Origin: Porphyridium purpureum
Lineage: Eukaryota; Rhodophyta; Bangiophyceae; Porphyridiales; Porphyridiaceae
Assembly: GCA_008690995.1 (NCBI GenBank)
Contig: VRMN01000006.1
Span: forward strand, 134,501 to 198,500
Direction of reading: 5' to 3'
DNA length: 64,000 nucleotides
Shown: positions 20,762 through 60,971 of the stretch, one piece after another
How positions within the stretch are numbered: position 1 is the stretch's first letter
How the letters are laid out: each line of letters starts with the position of its first letter
Position numbers and translations under genes: made by a program
Notes under the pieces: model-generated
Databases searched by the model: none
Told to the model about the DNA's origin: nothing
The model's input: the letters and a program-made list of their open reading frames with translations, nothing else

Positions 20762-23515
20762 ATGGTGCGTGTGCGCAGCCAGCGCAACATGTCGCTGCCG
20801 CTGCGGCGTGTGATGGACGCCGCGCGCCGGTGTCGACGCAGCGCGGGTGCGCGCGCGACGCGCACATTGGCGCTGTGCGCGAGCTTGAGGTGCACGCGCG
20901 TCGGGCTGATCGACGCGTGCGGTGCTGACGCTCGTCCGTCATGGCAGGCTGTCGCAGCGTGGAAGGGTCTTCGGGACAGCTCGAAGCAGGCGTTGGAGTC
21001 AAGGAAAATGATCTGGAGCGCCGCCGCAGTGCAGTCGCCCGCCGTGGAGCCTGCCACCAAGGTTGCCATCCCGGATGCCGCCGATGAACGCTGCGAGTCG
21101 CCGCTTTGCTCCTCCCAAGCACTCTTGATCATGCCGTGCACGTACCGGTCCGAGCTGCACCAGGTGAGTCTAGGACTTCTCGATCTGCTGGCCAGCACCG
21201 GCAGCTCGCGTGTGGGTTACTTTCGCGTTGTGGCCCCAACCGAATACGCCCTGAGTGGCATTAAGGATCTGGCCAAAGTACCCGTCGGGTACGGCGTCAA
21301 GCAAGAGCAGGCGCTGGACATTCTTGGTTCTGGACGTAGCGTGGACCTGCAGGAGGAAGTGCTGGCGGCGTACGAGCGGTTCAAGAAGGAGAACGAGCTG
21401 GACTTTGTCGTCGTAGACGCTGACCATGTGCCGGGCCACTCCTCAGACGCTACGTGTGTTATGTGGGCGGCACTGGCCAGGGTGATCGATGCAAATATTC
21501 TTGGCGTCGTTGATGCGGAAGCACTAGCGTTGGAGACCGGTCGGCTGTCCGTTCAGCCGGGCGCTCAGGTGCCCGTGTCAGACATCGTCTCAGTGATCAA
21601 CGACCATCGCAGATTGCTCACAGAGTCCAAGGCGCCCCTTCTGGGCACGCTCGTGATTCGCTCGCGCAACGCCGCGGCGCTAAATGAGGCGCTCCGCGTG
21701 CATCTGGGCGACTTCTCGCTGGGCGTGATTCCAATGGACAGCCAGCTGGAGTCTGCGACGCTGGTCGACATTGCGGATTGCCTGCGTGCCACCGTACACA
21801 TAGGCGAGGAGTGCCTGCAAAACTCGGTGCGCCGGGAGGCAATTTTAATCGGGACCATGGGGCTCAAAGATCTGCTGAGCTACTTGAAGCGAAAGAACCC
21901 TATGAAGTACTTTGATAAGCGCTCAGTGATGAAGGCGCTCGAGGAAGCTTTTGAAAACTCCGAGCTGCAAGGCGACGCATCGAAGCAGGTGGCTTCCTCG
22001 TGGTCTGAGCAGGCGTTTGCCGATTTCGCTCGCATTCACGTTCCTCAAGCTCTGCCGTTTGAGCTGCATGAGATCTTTGAGTTCTTGGACGAAGATCACG
22101 ACGGCAAGCTGTCGTTCGAGGACATTCAGCGTGGTTCGTCCGCGTACGTGGTAATCTGCGACTGCAGTCGAATTGACCTGATTCTTGGCCTGATGGCGAT
22201 CGACAGCTCCAAAGAATGGATGGGGCGTGTGCAGGGCATTGTGGTCACGGTGGATGACAAGGCAAGGCTGCAAGACGGCGCATACCTGGACGATCTTATG
22301 GACATGCTGCGCTCGTTCCAAGGCGAAGGCTCGTGCATTCCCGTCTTGCTGGCATCGCATCACACGTCACTCAGCGCGGCGAAAAGGATCGGCAAGTTGA
22401 GGCCCAGAATTACGGGGGTCTCGAGTCGCAAGCACGCGCGCTGCGTCACGCTGTTTGACAAGTACGTTGCAACGGATCGTCTCATGGCGTTGTTGGGTGC
22501 GAAGCGCGCTCCTCGCGTTATTTCGGCGCGTGCGTTCGAGCACATGATGTTTTCAAAGGCGCGTGCAACCCTGCGGCATATTGTGCTGGCCGAGGGCGAA
22601 GAGCCGGATATTCAACGCGCGGCGCAGGAAGTTGTATCCCGCAACTACGCCAAAGTCACGCTTTTGGGTGATCCCGAGGTGATCTTGGACAAGGCGCGCA
22701 AGGCGCGGGTCGATTTGTCAGACGCGCAGATCGTCAATCCACTAGACTCACCACAGCGCGCAAAGTACCTGCAAATGCTGATGGACCGGGAGGAGCAGAG
22801 CATGGAAGTGCACTCGGTCGCGATGAACGACGCGAACGTGTACGGCACGCTCATGGTGGAAGCCGGCGACGCGGACGCCATGGTGAGTGGGTATCTTTCG
22901 ACCACCTTTGCCACCATCCGCGCCGCGGTGAGGTACATTGGTACGCAGCCGGGCGTGTCGGTGGTTTCGTCTGTGTTTTTCATGATGCTCGACAGCGAGG
23001 TGCTGACGTACGCCGATGCTGCACTGAACCCGGACCCGTCGCCAGAAGAGCTGGCCTCGATTGCGATTGCGAGTGCCAAGACGGCGAGCAAGTTTGGCAT
23101 CAAGCCGCGCGTTGCGCTGCTTTCGTACGCGACGGGCACGTCCAACACGGGTCCGCTGATTGACAAGGTTCGCGACGCGTATGCGATTGTGCGAGAGCGG
23201 GAGCCGTCGCTGGCTGTGTACGGGCCGATCCAGTACGACGCCGCGGTGGACCCGAAAGTGGCGCGAACCAAGGTGAAGAGCGGCGACGAGTTCCACGTGG
23301 CGGGGCGGGCGAACGTGCTGATCTTCCCGAACCTGAGCACGGGGAACAACGCGTACAAGGCCGTGCAGCGGAGCACGGGCGCGGTGGCGATTGGGCCGGT
23401 GATCCAGGGCCTGCGCAAGCCCGTGAACGACCTGAGCCGCGGCGCGACGGTGAAGGAAATCTACGAAACCATCGTGCTCACCGCGTGCCTTGTGGAAGAC
23501 GCGCCACCCGCCTAA
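20762..23515 (+). CDS. PTA: Phosphate acetyltransferase with an EF-hand inserted in its DRTGG domain
   Basis: 917 residues. Pta converts acetyl-CoA and phosphate to acetyl phosphate. Residues 1-100 look like an organelle presequence. Residues 115-360 match the N-terminal P-loop-like region (LIMPCTYRSELHQVSLGLLD). The DRTGG regulatory region starts at TMGLKDLLSYLKRKN (about 365) but is interrupted by some 85 residues. That insertion carries a canonical EF-hand loop, DEDHDGKLSFED (443-454), before resuming at YVVICDCSRIDLILGL (about 462). The catalytic PTA domain runs from about 594 to the end, with MVSGYLSTT, LSYATGTSNTG, GPIQYDAAVDP and FPNLSTGNNAYKAVQR. Position 12 of the loop is Asp rather than Glu, which is tolerated but weakens calcium over magnesium selectivity. 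The enzyme family is certain; calcium control is inference. Confidence 0.92.
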   Translation: MVRVRSQRNMSLPLRRVMDAARRCRRSAGARATRTLALCASLRCTRVGLIDACGADARPSWQAVAAWKGLRDSSKQALESRKMIWSAAAVQSPAVEPATKVAIPDAADERCESPLCSSQALLIMPCTYRSELHQVSLGLLDLLASTGSSRVGYFRVVAPTEYALSGIKDLAKVPVGYGVKQEQALDILGSGRSVDLQEEVLAAYERFKKENELDFVVVDADHVPGHSSDATCVMWAALARVIDANILGVVDAEALALETGRLSVQPGAQVPVSDIVSVINDHRRLLTESKAPLLGTLVIRSRNAAALNEALRVHLGDFSLGVIPMDSQLESATLVDIADCLRATVHIGEECLQNSVRREAILIGTMGLKDLLSYLKRKNPMKYFDKRSVMKALEEAFENSELQGDASKQVASSWSEQAFADFARIHVPQALPFELHEIFEFLDEDHDGKLSFEDIQRGSSAYVVICDCSRIDLILGLMAIDSSKEWMGRVQGIVVTVDDKARLQDGAYLDDLMDMLRSFQGEGSCIPVLLASHHTSLSAAKRIGKLRPRITGVSSRKHARCVTLFDKYVATDRLMALLGAKRAPRVISARAFEHMMFSKARATLRHIVLAEGEEPDIQRAAQEVVSRNYAKVTLLGDPEVILDKARKARVDLSDAQIVNPLDSPQRAKYLQMLMDREEQSMEVHSVAMNDANVYGTLMVEAGDADAMVSGYLSTTFATIRAAVRYIGTQPGVSVVSSVFFMMLDSEVLTYADAALNPDPSPEELASIAIASAKTASKFGIKPRVALLSYATGTSNTGPLIDKVRDAYAIVREREPSLAVYGPIQYDAAVDPKVARTKVKSGDEFHVAGRANVLIFPNLSTGNNAYKAVQRSTGAVAIGPVIQGLRKPVNDLSRGATVKEIYETIVLTACLVEDAPPA

Positions 23516-52836: not shown

Positions 52837-54900
52837 CTACTCCGGCTCTTGTCCATTCGTCTCCGTTGCTTCGTTGGCCTCTATTTCTTCGCGCAACATC
52901 GCAGTCAGGATTTCATCCGCCAGCTCTACTATGGACATGTTTCTGGCGTTCGCTGCCATACGCATTCTTTGGATTGTGCGTACTTGAAGCGCAAGGCGAG
53001 GATCGGAGCCTGTGTCCGCATTCCCGTTTCCTTCACGAGGTGCGTTCTTTTCTTTCCTTGTCCGGAGACTATTGTTGGAGCGTGACCCACCGAAATCCAT
53101 TGTTGAACAGAAATCACCAAACGATAGGTCAGGCGAGGATGCGGTCGCGTGTAGCCAGTTCTTAAGAATTGGCTCCAGGCTCGCCAAAAGATCGTCTTCA
53201 GCCAAGGATTCATGCCAAAGTAACCCGGCTCGGTCGCCGGCGGAAGATCCACCCAAGTAGACATCGAACGTTGGCCCATTTTCGCTTGCGAGTTGTCGTT
53301 GCAATAAACCGATCTCCCCGAGCGCACACACCCCTCGCGCAGACCTTCTCAAGTCAGAATATTCGAGCTTGACCGTCACTGGCCGAAGCTGAATGGAAGG
53401 CGTCTGCCTCGCCTGGTCAGCCGCCCAAGCATTCAAGCGTTTCATCACCGAGTTCAGTGAGATATGCGCAGCCTGCACGGCCGCTGGAGCGGCCGCTTTC
53501 ATGCCGTTCAGTGTACAAACAAAGGGCATGGACTCCCGATCCTCTTCCATCGATGGCGCTGGCGTGAACGGAAATGTGCCGTGAAATTTGATGTTGTACT
53601 CACCGAGCAACGCATCAATGTTCCGCAGTTCTGCTTCCTTGAAATTCCGGAAAATGAAATCCAGCGAGCATTTGGACGGCAAAACCTGAATCTCAAGATC
53701 ATAGACGTCAAGAAGCCGGCGAATGGCGCTCAAAATGCGCTGCTCGCCTGCATCCGAAATACCATCAGAGCCATCGAGCATCATGCGAAAACAATGGACT
53801 TCACGACTATACGGGGTACCGGGGATCCAACCACACGTGAAGCTAGCAGAATCCGAAACCGCAGAAGGTTCCGCGATATGACCCGACTCGACAGCTCCGC
53901 GCCACGACTCCAATTTTACACCACGCGCTATCAGTACTCTCCGTAACTTCTCAGGGGTAAATTTTTCCACGATGGAGAGCAGATCACATTCGGGGGATAG
54001 ATCACCGAGGGCGGCAATGAGAGTCAATACATCCGACTCGGTCTCCACAAAGCCCAAATGAGCGACATTCAAGCGGCCATCATGGGGCTTCCAAGCTGGA
54101 TTTTCGGTCAGAAGAGCGGCACCAAGTACCACATTGTATCCAAGCAGAGAGCCCTGGGCAGCTGGATCTGCGTCGAGAAGCGCAAGAAGGCCTAGATCAC
54201 AGGCGTAAATGTCTACACTGGTATCCATGTCTGGTGCACCAAACCGCACCGTCAGTATGGCGTGAGTGCCTGCCGACCGCAGAACGGTCCGCCGCTCATC
54301 CGCGCTTGATTCTGATCGCATGAGCAACTCAGTCCCACGCCATACCTCAAGATGGACACCTGTTGGTTGAAGCCGATGAGATAAGGACTGAAATGAGTCA
54401 AGGCACGATGGAGGTGACGTACGCAGAGAATACCAGCTCAGACATTCAGGCACGTGGCTCACACTCCGATTCGCGTCCCCTCCCTGCTGCGACGTGGTCG
54501 CCTCGCACAGCATGTCTACGTCGTTATCGAGCAAGGCGTTCATCTCATCGCCCGTAAGCCCATTCAAGAGAAGGCTTCCGTCTGGTGAAGTGGACAGCGT
54601 GACTTTGTTTCCCAGGCTTTCCGAAAGCGAGCAAAGGCGCTTAAAGAGAGCCGCGGGATAGACACTATCTCGCGTGATCACGCGCAGAGCATAGCCTTCT
54701 TTAGAAGATGGTAGTCTCTTCCGAACGCTACCCTCTGAATCCAGCTCTGATGCTTGCACAGCCAGAAGGTTGCTTCTGCTCGTGTCGCTGTGACGTTTGG
54801 ATCGCCATTGAGACTGCAGCGCAAGTACAGTAGCATGAAGTAAAGGGGAGGAATAAGAATATCCGCAAAGACGCATGAGGTCAGTTACCGTACGACACAT
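52837..54900 (-). CDS. Sulfite/nitrite reductase-like protein lacking cluster and siroheme ligands
   Basis: 687 residues. The whole ferredoxin-dependent sulfite reductase (SiR) fold can be traced. It has a first ferredoxin-like half (68-125, YALRVITRDSVYPAALFKRL), GGDANRSV (140-147) for the SiR ACGDxNRNV block, and VHLEVWRGTELL for the YDVWVDGEKFM strand. Then come GYNVVLGAALL (254-264) for GFNLYVGGGM, HLGFVETESDVL, and a second half (368-436, LEIQVLPSKCSLDFIFRNF). The end has VYLGGSSAG (547-555) and SFGDF (593-597). The residues that make SiR an enzyme are missing. TTRQ is STSP. The CxxxxxC block near 458-470 keeps at most one Cys. TGCPNGCARP is replaced near 511-522 by EYSDLRRSAR. This predicts no 4Fe-4S/siroheme. 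An N-terminal plastid presequence and a charged C-terminal tail are present. Fold call is firm by motif order; function is unknown. Confidence 0.8.
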   Translation of the reverse strand: MCRTVTDLMRLCGYSYSSPLLHATVLALQSQWRSKRHSDTSRSNLLAVQASELDSEGSVRKRLPSSKEGYALRVITRDSVYPAALFKRLCSLSESLGNKVTLSTSPDGSLLLNGLTGDEMNALLDNDVDMLCEATTSQQGGDANRSVSHVPECLSWYSLRTSPPSCLDSFQSLSHRLQPTGVHLEVWRGTELLMRSESSADERRTVLRSAGTHAILTVRFGAPDMDTSVDIYACDLGLLALLDADPAAQGSLLGYNVVLGAALLTENPAWKPHDGRLNVAHLGFVETESDVLTLIAALGDLSPECDLLSIVEKFTPEKLRRVLIARGVKLESWRGAVESGHIAEPSAVSDSASFTCGWIPGTPYSREVHCFRMMLDGSDGISDAGEQRILSAIRRLLDVYDLEIQVLPSKCSLDFIFRNFKEAELRNIDALLGEYNIKFHGTFPFTPAPSMEEDRESMPFVCTLNGMKAAAPAAVQAAHISLNSVMKRLNAWAADQARQTPSIQLRPVTVKLEYSDLRRSARGVCALGEIGLLQRQLASENGPTFDVYLGGSSAGDRAGLLWHESLAEDDLLASLEPILKNWLHATASSPDLSFGDFCSTMDFGGSRSNNSLRTRKEKNAPREGNGNADTGSDPRLALQVRTIQRMRMAANARNMSIVELADEILTAMLREEIEANEATETNGQEPE

Positions 54901-56585: not shown

Positions 56586-58364
56586 ATGGAGTACGATGGC
56601 GACAAAGGTCCTTGGAGCAAGGCGGCATGGAGAGAGTTTGGCGATGAGAGCAGCAGTGGGCAGCTGATCGGAATGCTAAACTCTTGCCCGGGGGAATATG
56701 ATGCGGAGAGGGGCAACAATGTCGATGCGGAAAAAAGGCAAAGTCGCGACCTAACGTCGCGTCCACGAGGCGGCCTTAGAATGAGACTGTTTGCGAGTCT
56801 CTTGTTTGTTTTTCTTCTTTCAATTGCATCAGGAACTACTTTGATGTGGATTCAGCAAAGTGCTAGTCTCGTTGTGAGTGTTCACGCTGTGCATGAACAG
56901 ACTATGGCAGGTATGTTAGAGAACACCGTGGCGCAAGGTGATGAACATCTGTCCGCGACAACACATTTGCTAGTTATCAAGAAACCAGGGGACACGGCCA
57001 GCAGCCGTCTACAACGGACATTGCGGAGTGACCGCGAGTCACCGCGCAATAACTCCGTACCTGGTGCACAAGAAGGTATGAGCGGTGCAGATGCGACGCG
57101 CCGCCAAGCAAAGGAAGACGTTCGGCAGGGGCAAGAAGACCCGGAATCGCAGCACCTCGTGACTGTGAAGGTCATAGCAGGTCCGGATAGTGTGAATTTG
57201 GACAAACTTGAGGAAAGCAAGATAGCGGCAAGCCCACGCTACGTGACTGCCGATCTCAATGAACTCCATGCTGTGCGAGCTGCTCTGAGCGAAGGGAGCG
57301 TGGTAAATAATGAGCCTGATGGCGTCGGGGAAAAGTCCAGCAGCGTGACAGGGGCTTCACTTGAGACCCGGGTCCGCCATGTGTTGAATGAGGTTCGGGA
57401 ACCTCCAAGCAAATCAGTCTTGCTTCGCCCTCAACCCACGGCAGGCATTGGAGTCGGCCTGGCAAAATCGTTTAGACGTAGTCTTGGGTCTGAGAATGTA
57501 GTGGCAGATCCTGTGAAGGCAGAGACACGCGCCGCGAAAAGTCAGGGCTTTGCGGGATTGTCCAGTCCCACTGGAGCAATGCGCAAACGAGCAGCGTGTG
57601 CGCACAGGGCCTTGAAATTTACGAAAAGGTCGTGTGGGTACAAGTCCGGACTGCGGATGTTGGGCGACAAGGTGTATGGTGGGTGGAAAATGTGTGTGGA
57701 GGGTATTCACGAAATGGCGAAAGAGCAGCGCGAAGCGCTCGTTGTCTACGGTTTCGGGGTTGGCTTTGACACGTCGTGGGACGAAGCGCTCATGTCCCAG
57801 TACGGCTTGAACGTCCATGCGTTTGATCCCACGCCGAGGTCGCTCGAGTATGTTCGTGGGCGGAAAGAACTTCAGACGCCGTTGTTTCATCACAGCGCCG
57901 TGGGTTTGGGCACGACGAACCGAAATGAAACGTGGTATGAGCCGCGGAAGGGACGGTGGGAGGCGTCCAACAGCAAATACAACCACCTGAAGGACGGCAT
58001 TGCGCACGAAGTGGAAGTCAAGACGCTGAAGACACTGATGCAGGAGCGCGGTCACACGCACATTGACGTGCTGAAAATTGACATTGAGGGAGCGGAGTAC
58101 GAGGTGCTGGTTGACCTTCTGAAGGATGGCGGATGCCTGCCGACGAACCAGCTTCTGATGGAGACGCACTCGTACCAAATGAAGCAGCTGTGGAAAGCTC
58201 ACGGAGAAACCGTGGCGCTCCTTGAGCAGGCTGGGTTCAGGCTTGTGTTCGCAGGCCCAGGCAATCACGAGCACACGTGGATTCGTTTTCTTGACAGATC
58301 GAGGATGAGGGATCATCCAGGAAAAAGTCATGGGGACATGAATCAAAGCAAGGTGATATCGTGA
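56586..58364 (+). CDS. Type II membrane methyltransferase, copy 1 (METTL24/FkbM-like)
   Basis: 592 residues from ATG 56586. A cytosolic tail, a signal anchor at about 66-90 (MRLFASLLFVFLLSIASGTT) and a long variable stem (90-350) precede a C-terminal methyltransferase domain (about 356-565). The domain has GGWKMCVEGIHEM, the SAM-site block VVYGFGVGFDTSWDEALMSQ, VHAFDPTP and the FkbM-like IDVLKIDIEGAEYEVL. The pattern YSFGxxxDxSWDEAL ... HAFDP is that of the Methyltransf_22/METTL24 group. Type II topology puts the domain in the Golgi lumen. Methylation of polysaccharide sugars is a reasonable guess because Porphyridium walls contain O-methyl sugars. The catalytic segment is almost identical at DNA level to copy 2; the stem is not. 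Confidence 0.8.
   Translation: MEYDGDKGPWSKAAWREFGDESSSGQLIGMLNSCPGEYDAERGNNVDAEKRQSRDLTSRPRGGLRMRLFASLLFVFLLSIASGTTLMWIQQSASLVVSVHAVHEQTMAGMLENTVAQGDEHLSATTHLLVIKKPGDTASSRLQRTLRSDRESPRNNSVPGAQEGMSGADATRRQAKEDVRQGQEDPESQHLVTVKVIAGPDSVNLDKLEESKIAASPRYVTADLNELHAVRAALSEGSVVNNEPDGVGEKSSSVTGASLETRVRHVLNEVREPPSKSVLLRPQPTAGIGVGLAKSFRRSLGSENVVADPVKAETRAAKSQGFAGLSSPTGAMRKRAACAHRALKFTKRSCGYKSGLRMLGDKVYGGWKMCVEGIHEMAKEQREALVVYGFGVGFDTSWDEALMSQYGLNVHAFDPTPRSLEYVRGRKELQTPLFHHSAVGLGTTNRNETWYEPRKGRWEASNSKYNHLKDGIAHEVEVKTLKTLMQERGHTHIDVLKIDIEGAEYEVLVDLLKDGGCLPTNQLLMETHSYQMKQLWKAHGETVALLEQAGFRLVFAGPGNHEHTWIRFLDRSRMRDHPGKSHGDMNQSKVIS
57648..58258 (+). repeat. Near-identical 611-bp catalytic segment, copy A
   Basis: Compared by eye with 60285-60895: 4 mismatches in 611 bases, about 99.3% identical, with no gaps. 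Similarity collapses abruptly on the 5' side and decays within about 40 bases on the 3' side. Confidence 0.95.
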
Positions 58365-59537: not shown

Positions 59538-60971
59538 ATGGGAGAAATAAAGAGCTTTCTTCCGGCCGCCGGCGGCTGGAGCCGGCTGGCGTCCGGCTGG
59601 GCGCACCCAGCTGCGGAGTCAACCGACCCGCCCGCCCGCGTGCGGAGGTTTGCGTCCGCGAGGCCGGTCAAGATTGCCACGGCAATGTTGCTTGTCGTGG
59701 CCCTGGGTGCGCTTGTGTTCAAGCTGCACAGCATATCTTTGTCGCATGACGCCTTTCTCGCGACGTTCGGGAATCATCATCGGTTTCTCGCGGACATCGG
59801 AGCCGTGGCGGCTGTGGGCGGCGAGGGGCTGAGCTCCGACGGCGCGCCCCAGGATAATGAAGCCCCGGACAAAAAGCACGTGGAAGTGGATAAAGCACAG
59901 ACGGTGAAAAACACAGAACCCCTCGGAATAGACAGCAGTCGCACGTCTGGAGGGTTGATCCATGTCTCATCGAAACGCGCTGATATTCAAAGCAATCGGG
60001 GAGCTGTAGAACATACTCAGGCGCAGAAAGACGGAGCACTTGATCAGCCTGCAGTTCCAAGCAACATCTCATCCGTCAAGACTAACAGAGACCATATTGA
60101 CGATATAGAAGTGCGACAAGGCGAAAGCAGAGTCGCGGCTCCAGTTTTGAACGAGTCAAAGTTGTCACGCGCAGATTCGCCGAGCGAGTTGGCCGGATCC
60201 GATGCAAGCAGAATGCAACCTTTGCGCCAAACATGCGCCGAGGAAGCATTGTCCTTCAGAAAGTGGCCGTGTGAGCAAAAGGGAGGACTGCGGATGTTGG
60301 GCGACAAGGTGTATGGTGGGTGGAAAATGTGTGTGGAGGGTATTCACGAAATGGCGAAAGAGCAGCGCGAAGCGCTCGTTGTCTACGGTTTTGGGATTGG
60401 CTTTGACACGTCGTGGGACGAAGCGCTCATGTCCCAGTACGGCTTGAACGTCCATGCGTTTGATCCCACGCCGAGGTCGCTCGAGTATGTTCGTGGGCGG
60501 AAAGAACTTCAGACGCCGTTGTTTCATCACAGCGCCGTGGGTTTGGGCACGACGAACCGAAATGAAACGTGGTATGAGCCGCGGAAGGGACGGTGGGAGG
60601 CGTCCAACAGCAAATACAACCACCTGAAGGACGGTATTGCGCACGAAGTGGAAGTCAAGACGCTGAAGACACTGATGCAGGAGCGAGGTCACACGCACAT
60701 TGACGTGCTGAAAATTGACATTGAGGGAGCGGAGTACGAGGTGCTGGTTGACCTTCTGAAGGATGGCGGATGCCTGCCGACGAACCAGCTTCTGATGGAG
60801 ACGCACTCGTACCAAATGAAGCAGCTGTGGAAAGCTCACGGAGAAACCGTGGCGCTCCTTGAGCAGGCTGGGTTCAGGCTTGTGTTCGCAGGCCCGGGAG
60901 ATCATGAGCACACGTGGATTCGCTTCGAAGAGGAGAAAGGAGAAAAGACGAATCAGAAGGATTCTGTTTGA
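59538..60971 (+). CDS. Type II membrane methyltransferase, copy 2 (METTL24/FkbM-like)
   Basis: 477 residues from ATG 59538 (MGEIKSFLPAAGGWSRLASG); the longer frame begins at GTG. Signal anchor about 44-66 (VKIATAMLLVVALGALVFKL), stem 67-250 unlike that of copy 1, catalytic domain about 251-460 almost identical to copy 1 (FGIGFDTSWDEAL instead of FGVGFDTSWDEAL). The shared domain with unrelated stem and anchor points to recent gene conversion or domain shuffling rather than a whole-gene duplication. Expected location: Golgi lumen. Substrate unknown. Confidence 0.8.
   Translation: MGEIKSFLPAAGGWSRLASGWAHPAAESTDPPARVRRFASARPVKIATAMLLVVALGALVFKLHSISLSHDAFLATFGNHHRFLADIGAVAAVGGEGLSSDGAPQDNEAPDKKHVEVDKAQTVKNTEPLGIDSSRTSGGLIHVSSKRADIQSNRGAVEHTQAQKDGALDQPAVPSNISSVKTNRDHIDDIEVRQGESRVAAPVLNESKLSRADSPSELAGSDASRMQPLRQTCAEEALSFRKWPCEQKGGLRMLGDKVYGGWKMCVEGIHEMAKEQREALVVYGFGIGFDTSWDEALMSQYGLNVHAFDPTPRSLEYVRGRKELQTPLFHHSAVGLGTTNRNETWYEPRKGRWEASNSKYNHLKDGIAHEVEVKTLKTLMQERGHTHIDVLKIDIEGAEYEVLVDLLKDGGCLPTNQLLMETHSYQMKQLWKAHGETVALLEQAGFRLVFAGPGDHEHTWIRFEEEKGEKTNQKDSV
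60285..60895 (+). repeat. Near-identical 611-bp catalytic segment, copy B
   Basis: Partner of 57648-58258. Three of the four mismatches are silent (TTC/TTT, GGC/GGT, CGC/CGA); one changes Val to Ile. Confidence 0.95.

Follow-up and report, generated by a model that had tools for sequence, protein, structure and literature searches.

According to an excerpt of PMC4154389, which cites work from 1999 on, the plant sulfite reductase (SiR, also DCP68) is a bifunctional plastid nucleoid protein that compacts DNA, and the same excerpt states that SiR was not detected in a maize nucleoid proteome. An excerpt of PMC2275785 describes plastid SiRs as related to cyanobacterial SiRs. In the portion of PMC2923531 that bears on nucleoids, the condensing protein is given as HU for red algae and as SiR for certain angiosperms. 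A possible precedent for a SiR pseudoenzyme, PMC11528492, was rejected, since the pseudoenzyme in the excerpt concerned is a plastid TrpC-TrpF protein and SiR is reported there to be absent. Within the open PMC literature we found no SiR pseudoenzyme, no paper among the matches listed that joins SiR with ribbon-helix-helix, CopG or a C-terminal extension, and no title combining sulfite reductase and Porphyridium that deals with a SiR relative of the kind described here. To our knowledge, the origin of the DNA-binding ability of plant SiR is unexplained. A SiR variant of the red alga Cyanidioschyzon merolae is said, in a title, to prefer nitrite; likened by that title alone, it would also be a red-algal paralogue with altered function, but an active enzyme.

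The protein considered here is a SiR-like protein without a canonical active site, encoded in the window, by which we mean the whole 64,000-nucleotide stretch of Porphyridium purpureum DNA that was analysed. Its open reading frame occupies positions 52837..54900 on the minus strand, as do all of its parts given below, and runs for 687 codons (687 aa) from ATG to TAG with 0 internal stops and with in-frame stops immediately 5' of the ATG, which confirms the coordinates and the intact frame claimed in the original prediction. Genes around it within the window include those for Nup54, SNF2, ATAD3, AsnRS and a CYP38-type cyclophilin; the window looks like nuclear DNA from a plastid-bearing eukaryote. 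The G+C content of 0.55–0.61 and the long, uninterrupted ORFs make a red alga plausible as the host. Two other stretches of the window are of separate interest. The adjacent plus-strand ORFs at 56586-58364 and 59538-60971, the latter with a match to the FkbM methyltransferase family, have near-identical C-terminal domains and differing N-terminal parts, a pattern as if from recent duplication or conversion. At 20762-23515, also on the plus strand, one long ORF carries a phosphate acetyl/butyryltransferase domain after a weak EF-hand-like match that is below the cut-off. The SiR-like protein itself begins with a segment (aa 1-50, 54751..54900) that has 2 acidic, 6 K/R and 12 S/T residues and low model confidence; this is a possible organelle transit peptide, of a composition compatible with plastid import.

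The body of the protein (aa 58-605, 53086..54729) is delimited by profile and fold matches to SiR. NCBIfam model NF010029 matches the protein at E 5.9e-16 (57.9 bits, against a curated cut-off of 457) and TIGR02042, the cyanobacterial ferredoxin SiR model, at E 3.8e-9 over aa 79-604 (35.2 bits, against a curated cut-off of 731.5), while Pfam gave no significant family for the whole protein (best E 0.14). A profile built from 70 SiRs scored 55.5 bits at aa 58-605, with shuffled sequences reaching at most 4.4 bits (1000 made, 279 scored), and matched none of the other six-frame segments of the window at E <= 10. The 70 sequences are those of 86 loci that carry a TGCPNGC-like motif, and the two-pattern SiR peptide search, from which the best 80 of 584 matches were taken, favours intact SiRs. 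A model of the protein was predicted with AlphaFold from an alignment that included 47 of these 70 true SiRs (pTM 0.65, mean pLDDT 65.5), and in a Foldseek search of the PDB it matched 31 chains at E <= 0.001, all of them assimilatory SiR or NiR/NirA. The closest solved fold is that of maize ferredoxin SiR (E 3.4e-20, TMt 0.65), in keeping with a scaffold shared with the plant plastid enzyme, and TMt values for E. coli SiR reach 0.75. Because true SiRs informed the model and bias it towards the SiR fold, we regard this match as support and not as independent proof. Searches outside cellular genomes gave no relative among viral contigs and no match in PHROGs, and a tblastn search of plasmids returned 12 records, none with an E below 4e-3, most of which have SiR/NiR features or no annotation. 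As judged from the agreement of NF010029, TIGR02042, the 70-SiR profile and the Foldseek match to maize SiR, the protein is a real, extremely divergent SiR relative. The SiR scaffold proposed originally is supported, and the blocks GGDANRSV, VYLGG and SFGDF are present as described.

We aligned the protein with 141 reference SiRs (E. coli SiR, 62 cyanobacterial and 78 other bacterial sequences), every one of which has all four cluster cysteines, whereas the SiR-like protein contains no CX3C, no CX5C and indeed no CX2-7C anywhere, with no two cysteines less than 10 residues apart. Where SiR has its first cysteine pair, a CX5C (aa 442-474, 53479..53577), the protein has the single cysteine C462 and a pLDDT below 50; where SiR has the second pair, a CX3C (aa 509-526, 53323..53376), it has the single cysteine C525, a pLDDT below 50 at aa 509-524, and gaps at the conserved R485-P-Y columns. 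The loops where the cluster would sit thus coincide with stretches in which model confidence is low (aa 441-474 and 509-524). MAFFT aligns C462 with C440 and C525 with C483, and does so only by opening gaps. In place of the earlier count of at most one cluster cysteine, made by eye, an upper limit of two in four is the more cautious figure; the loss of the paired cysteine motifs stands. Opposite the siroheme-contact TTRQ block (TNRQ at 115-118 in E. coli) the protein has STSPDGS (aa 103-109, 54574..54594), in which the equivalents of R117 and Q121 are changed. The block is indeed lost, as had been proposed, but the aligned site is S105-P-D-G108, two residues away from the STSP (aa 103-106) that had been named as its replacement. 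The E. coli RKFK (214-217) is aligned opposite A-I-L-T (aa 214-217, 54250..54261), with loss of K215 and K217. The equivalents lost altogether are C434, C479, R117, Q121, P213, R214, K215, K217, Y309, N481 and R485, and those of R83 and R153 are retained, the latter as R145 in the kept GDxNR block GDANRSVSH (aa 141-149, 54454..54480). We used a list of 16 active-site columns of E. coli SiR, including R83, R117, Q121, R153 and RKFK, all conserved in at least 90% of the 141 SiRs. Of these 16, 12 are changed and 4 are kept, the two gap-placed cysteines among the latter.

These absences and changes bear out the view that the scaffold lacks the ligands of the canonical cluster and siroheme. With the paired cysteine motifs, RKFK and TTRQ gone and most active-site columns changed, the protein should not assemble the canonical siroheme/4Fe-4S centre. 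A reductase that remains active through a rearrangement of its cluster site could still draw on C462 and C525, which can be placed in two cluster columns, but the equivalents of C434, C479, R485, N481, K215 and K217 are gone and no two cysteines lie closer than 10 residues, and we regard such an enzyme as barely credible. It is somewhat easier to imagine a sensor or carrier whose body, lacking a cluster, still binds a tetrapyrrole or an anion, given the retained equivalents of R83 and R153 and the GDxNR block. Against this, RKFK, R117, Q121 and Y309 are lost, and the 4/16 site columns kept correspond to the same rate as the 23/92 kept among the other columns conserved in at least 90% of SiRs, and a sensor or carrier of this type seems to us improbable.

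The same comparison indicates that the loss is general and not limited to the active site. Over the 108 conserved columns together the SiR-like protein keeps 27, and the reference SiRs, on which the columns were chosen, keep 86 at the lowest and 106 at the median. Such poor retention throughout might be expected of a gene that is losing its function, and codon use points the same way: the codon score of the ORF, -0.033, is the lowest of the 11 ORFs compared (6 of which also formed the codon reference) and is exceeded by those of its +1 frame and antisense (0.009 each), and as a result codon usage lends no support to coding or to high expression. However, an unselected frame of 687 codons would stay open with a probability of about (61/64)^687 = 4.7e-15 if equal codon use is assumed, and this frame is open at saturated divergence, with its SiR-like secondary structure and the register of its tail retained. 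A pseudogene thus seems very unlikely to us, and the earlier statement that this is not a decaying one can be kept in the form that it is not an obvious pseudogene.

The body does not decide whether the protein is of cyanobacterial origin. In a quick body tree (every second sequence) it groups with cyanobacteria with an SH-aLRT of 86, and in a more careful tree (every third sequence) it lies on the stem, with support of 89/76 with cyanobacteria and 72/62 with the others. In these body-only trees its branch is at the length limit of 10, meaning that divergence is saturated, and on account of the stem position and this branch length we rejected the trees as proof of ancestry. The body profile scores are likewise close, at 58.9 bits for cyanobacterial and 56.3 bits for other SiRs. 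The cyanobacterial SiR profile gives 57.2 bits for the body alone and 69.1 bits for the whole protein.

Beyond the SiR body, the ferredoxin SiRs of cyanobacteria carry an additional C-terminal tail, which by its sequence is a CopG-like ribbon-helix-helix (RHH) domain. We found this tail on 52 of the 60 cyanobacterial SiRs that were fetched and on none of the 78 from other bacteria, a group in which a Melainabacteria locus (L021) was placed, and 50 of the 52 tails are mutually distinct. The count comprises 51 tails found by an automatic rule and one added by hand (L129, with a tail match of 1.7e-11 whose start lies just outside the rule), and its ORFs were chosen by profile and not by the TGCPNGC-like motif. 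The 60 fetched places (L090-L149) stem from a search of 146 genomes, 67 of which had a match and 57 a match above the cut-off. The tail is absent from L106 and L143-L149, and also from L042 and L043, two loci labelled cyanobacterial whose inclusion makes the count 52/62. Eight low-scoring cyanobacterial matches (L150-L157), among many more listed, are tail-less and were set aside. Three of these, L150, L152 and L153, are SiR-family matches that extend about 200 residues further. By eye this extension looks like a CobG-CobH (precorrin-8X methylmutase) fusion.

The SiR-like protein shares with the cyanobacterial enzyme the order of body, linker and RHH tail. Its body is followed by a basic linker of 27 residues (aa 606-632, 53005..53085), with a net charge of +3 and low model confidence, and then by an RHH-like tail (aa 634-670, 52891..53001) whose alignment with the cyanobacterial tails is gapless and spans 37 columns. 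The gapless tail-profile score is 27.7 at aa 634, and the runner-up position in the protein scores -1.8. This score was reached by none of 20000 shuffles. In a separate run with a profile from 19 of 20 loci (L106, having no tail, was left out), the score of the tail was likewise reached by none of 5000, of which 3931 were scored. The tail ranks first among 1489 ORF ends with 9.5–10.1 bits, followed at 4.2–5.8 bits by the best of 1488 controls, which are the ends of six-frame ORFs of at least 120 codons, many of them not genes. In an open tail-profile search of the six-frame window segments the ORF came third of 939, at E 1.0. Since the position-specific tests are strong, we set aside a chance match, though the open search is weak. 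On this gapless register the tail at aa 634-670, which the original prediction had overlooked, is a homologue of the RHH domain found in cyanobacterial ferredoxin SiRs. This strengthens the earlier guess of a DNA-binding role and points to descent from a cyanobacterial/plastid-type SiR.

The assignment of the tail to the RHH fold comes from comparisons of the family. A profile of 13 cyanobacterial tails and the window tail matched 5 solved structures at E <= 0.1. The best two are a CopG-family RHH protein (7.4e-4) and ParG (1.3e-3), and the others are 56B, ORF E73 and AvtR; maize SiR, unlike these CopG-type proteins, is not among the matches at that threshold. When four cyanobacterial tails were compared with Pfam RHH_5, two scored 24.3 and 24.7 bits (E ~2e-5) against a cut-off of 26, and the other two gave E 0.02-0.14. 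The tail of the SiR-like protein alone matched no RHH family in Pfam and, with phmmer, no solved structure. CopG-type RHH domains have a strand, whereas the tail is predicted by AlphaFold, as a single chain, to be a confident two-helix hairpin without it, and Foldseek with this single-chain prediction gave no RHH match. RHH domains dimerise, and a lone RHH chain is without its strand partner.

It is possible that the tail serves only for dimerisation and that the protein is a partner or regulator of true SiR/NiR, the dead body tuning the active enzyme in mixed complexes. RHH domains are generally known as dimers, the tail has its homologues on cyanobacterial SiRs whose active sites are intact, and the acidic body (pI 5.0, net -23) and neutral RHH segment suit protein contacts more than DNA contacts. 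Plant SiR, however, is monomeric according to an excerpt of PMC2275785, and we think this explanation a good deal less likely than a role at DNA, though it deserves to be taken seriously. The charge also separates the protein from the catalytic plant enzyme, for which a table excerpted from PMC4154389 gives a pI of 9.1. With an acidic body, a neutral tail segment, no RHH strand in the predicted tail and weak codon bias, bulk compaction of DNA by the SiR-like protein is unlikely. Condensation by HU in red algae, together with the codon bias, counts against an abundant compacting role; both bear on abundance, which our preferred explanation already takes as low.

The explanation that we prefer, and to which we give about an even chance, is that the protein is a pseudoenzyme from a cyanobacterial/plastid-type ferredoxin SiR that works as a low-abundance, non-catalytic, DNA-associated regulator in the plastid, dimerised by its tail and not acting as a bulk compactor. 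An ancestral SiR of that type would have kept its DNA-binding or dimerisation tail and dropped catalysis. Its descendant would be imported into the plastid and would dimerise through the tail, and the tail dimer may then associate with DNA, or with a true SiR that carries a tail, so that the protein would act as a regulator present in small amounts. We further suggest, as a tentative and rather doubtful idea, that most cyanobacterial SiRs are fusions of an enzyme with a DNA-binding part by way of the RHH domain, that this fusion was the source of DNA binding by plastid SiR, and that in the organism studied here one copy shed the enzyme to become a dedicated DNA-associated regulator of the plastid. 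If this is true, cyanobacterial SiRs with a tail, set beside a dead SiR in which the tail survives, would separate DNA binding from catalysis in a manner that is directly testable.
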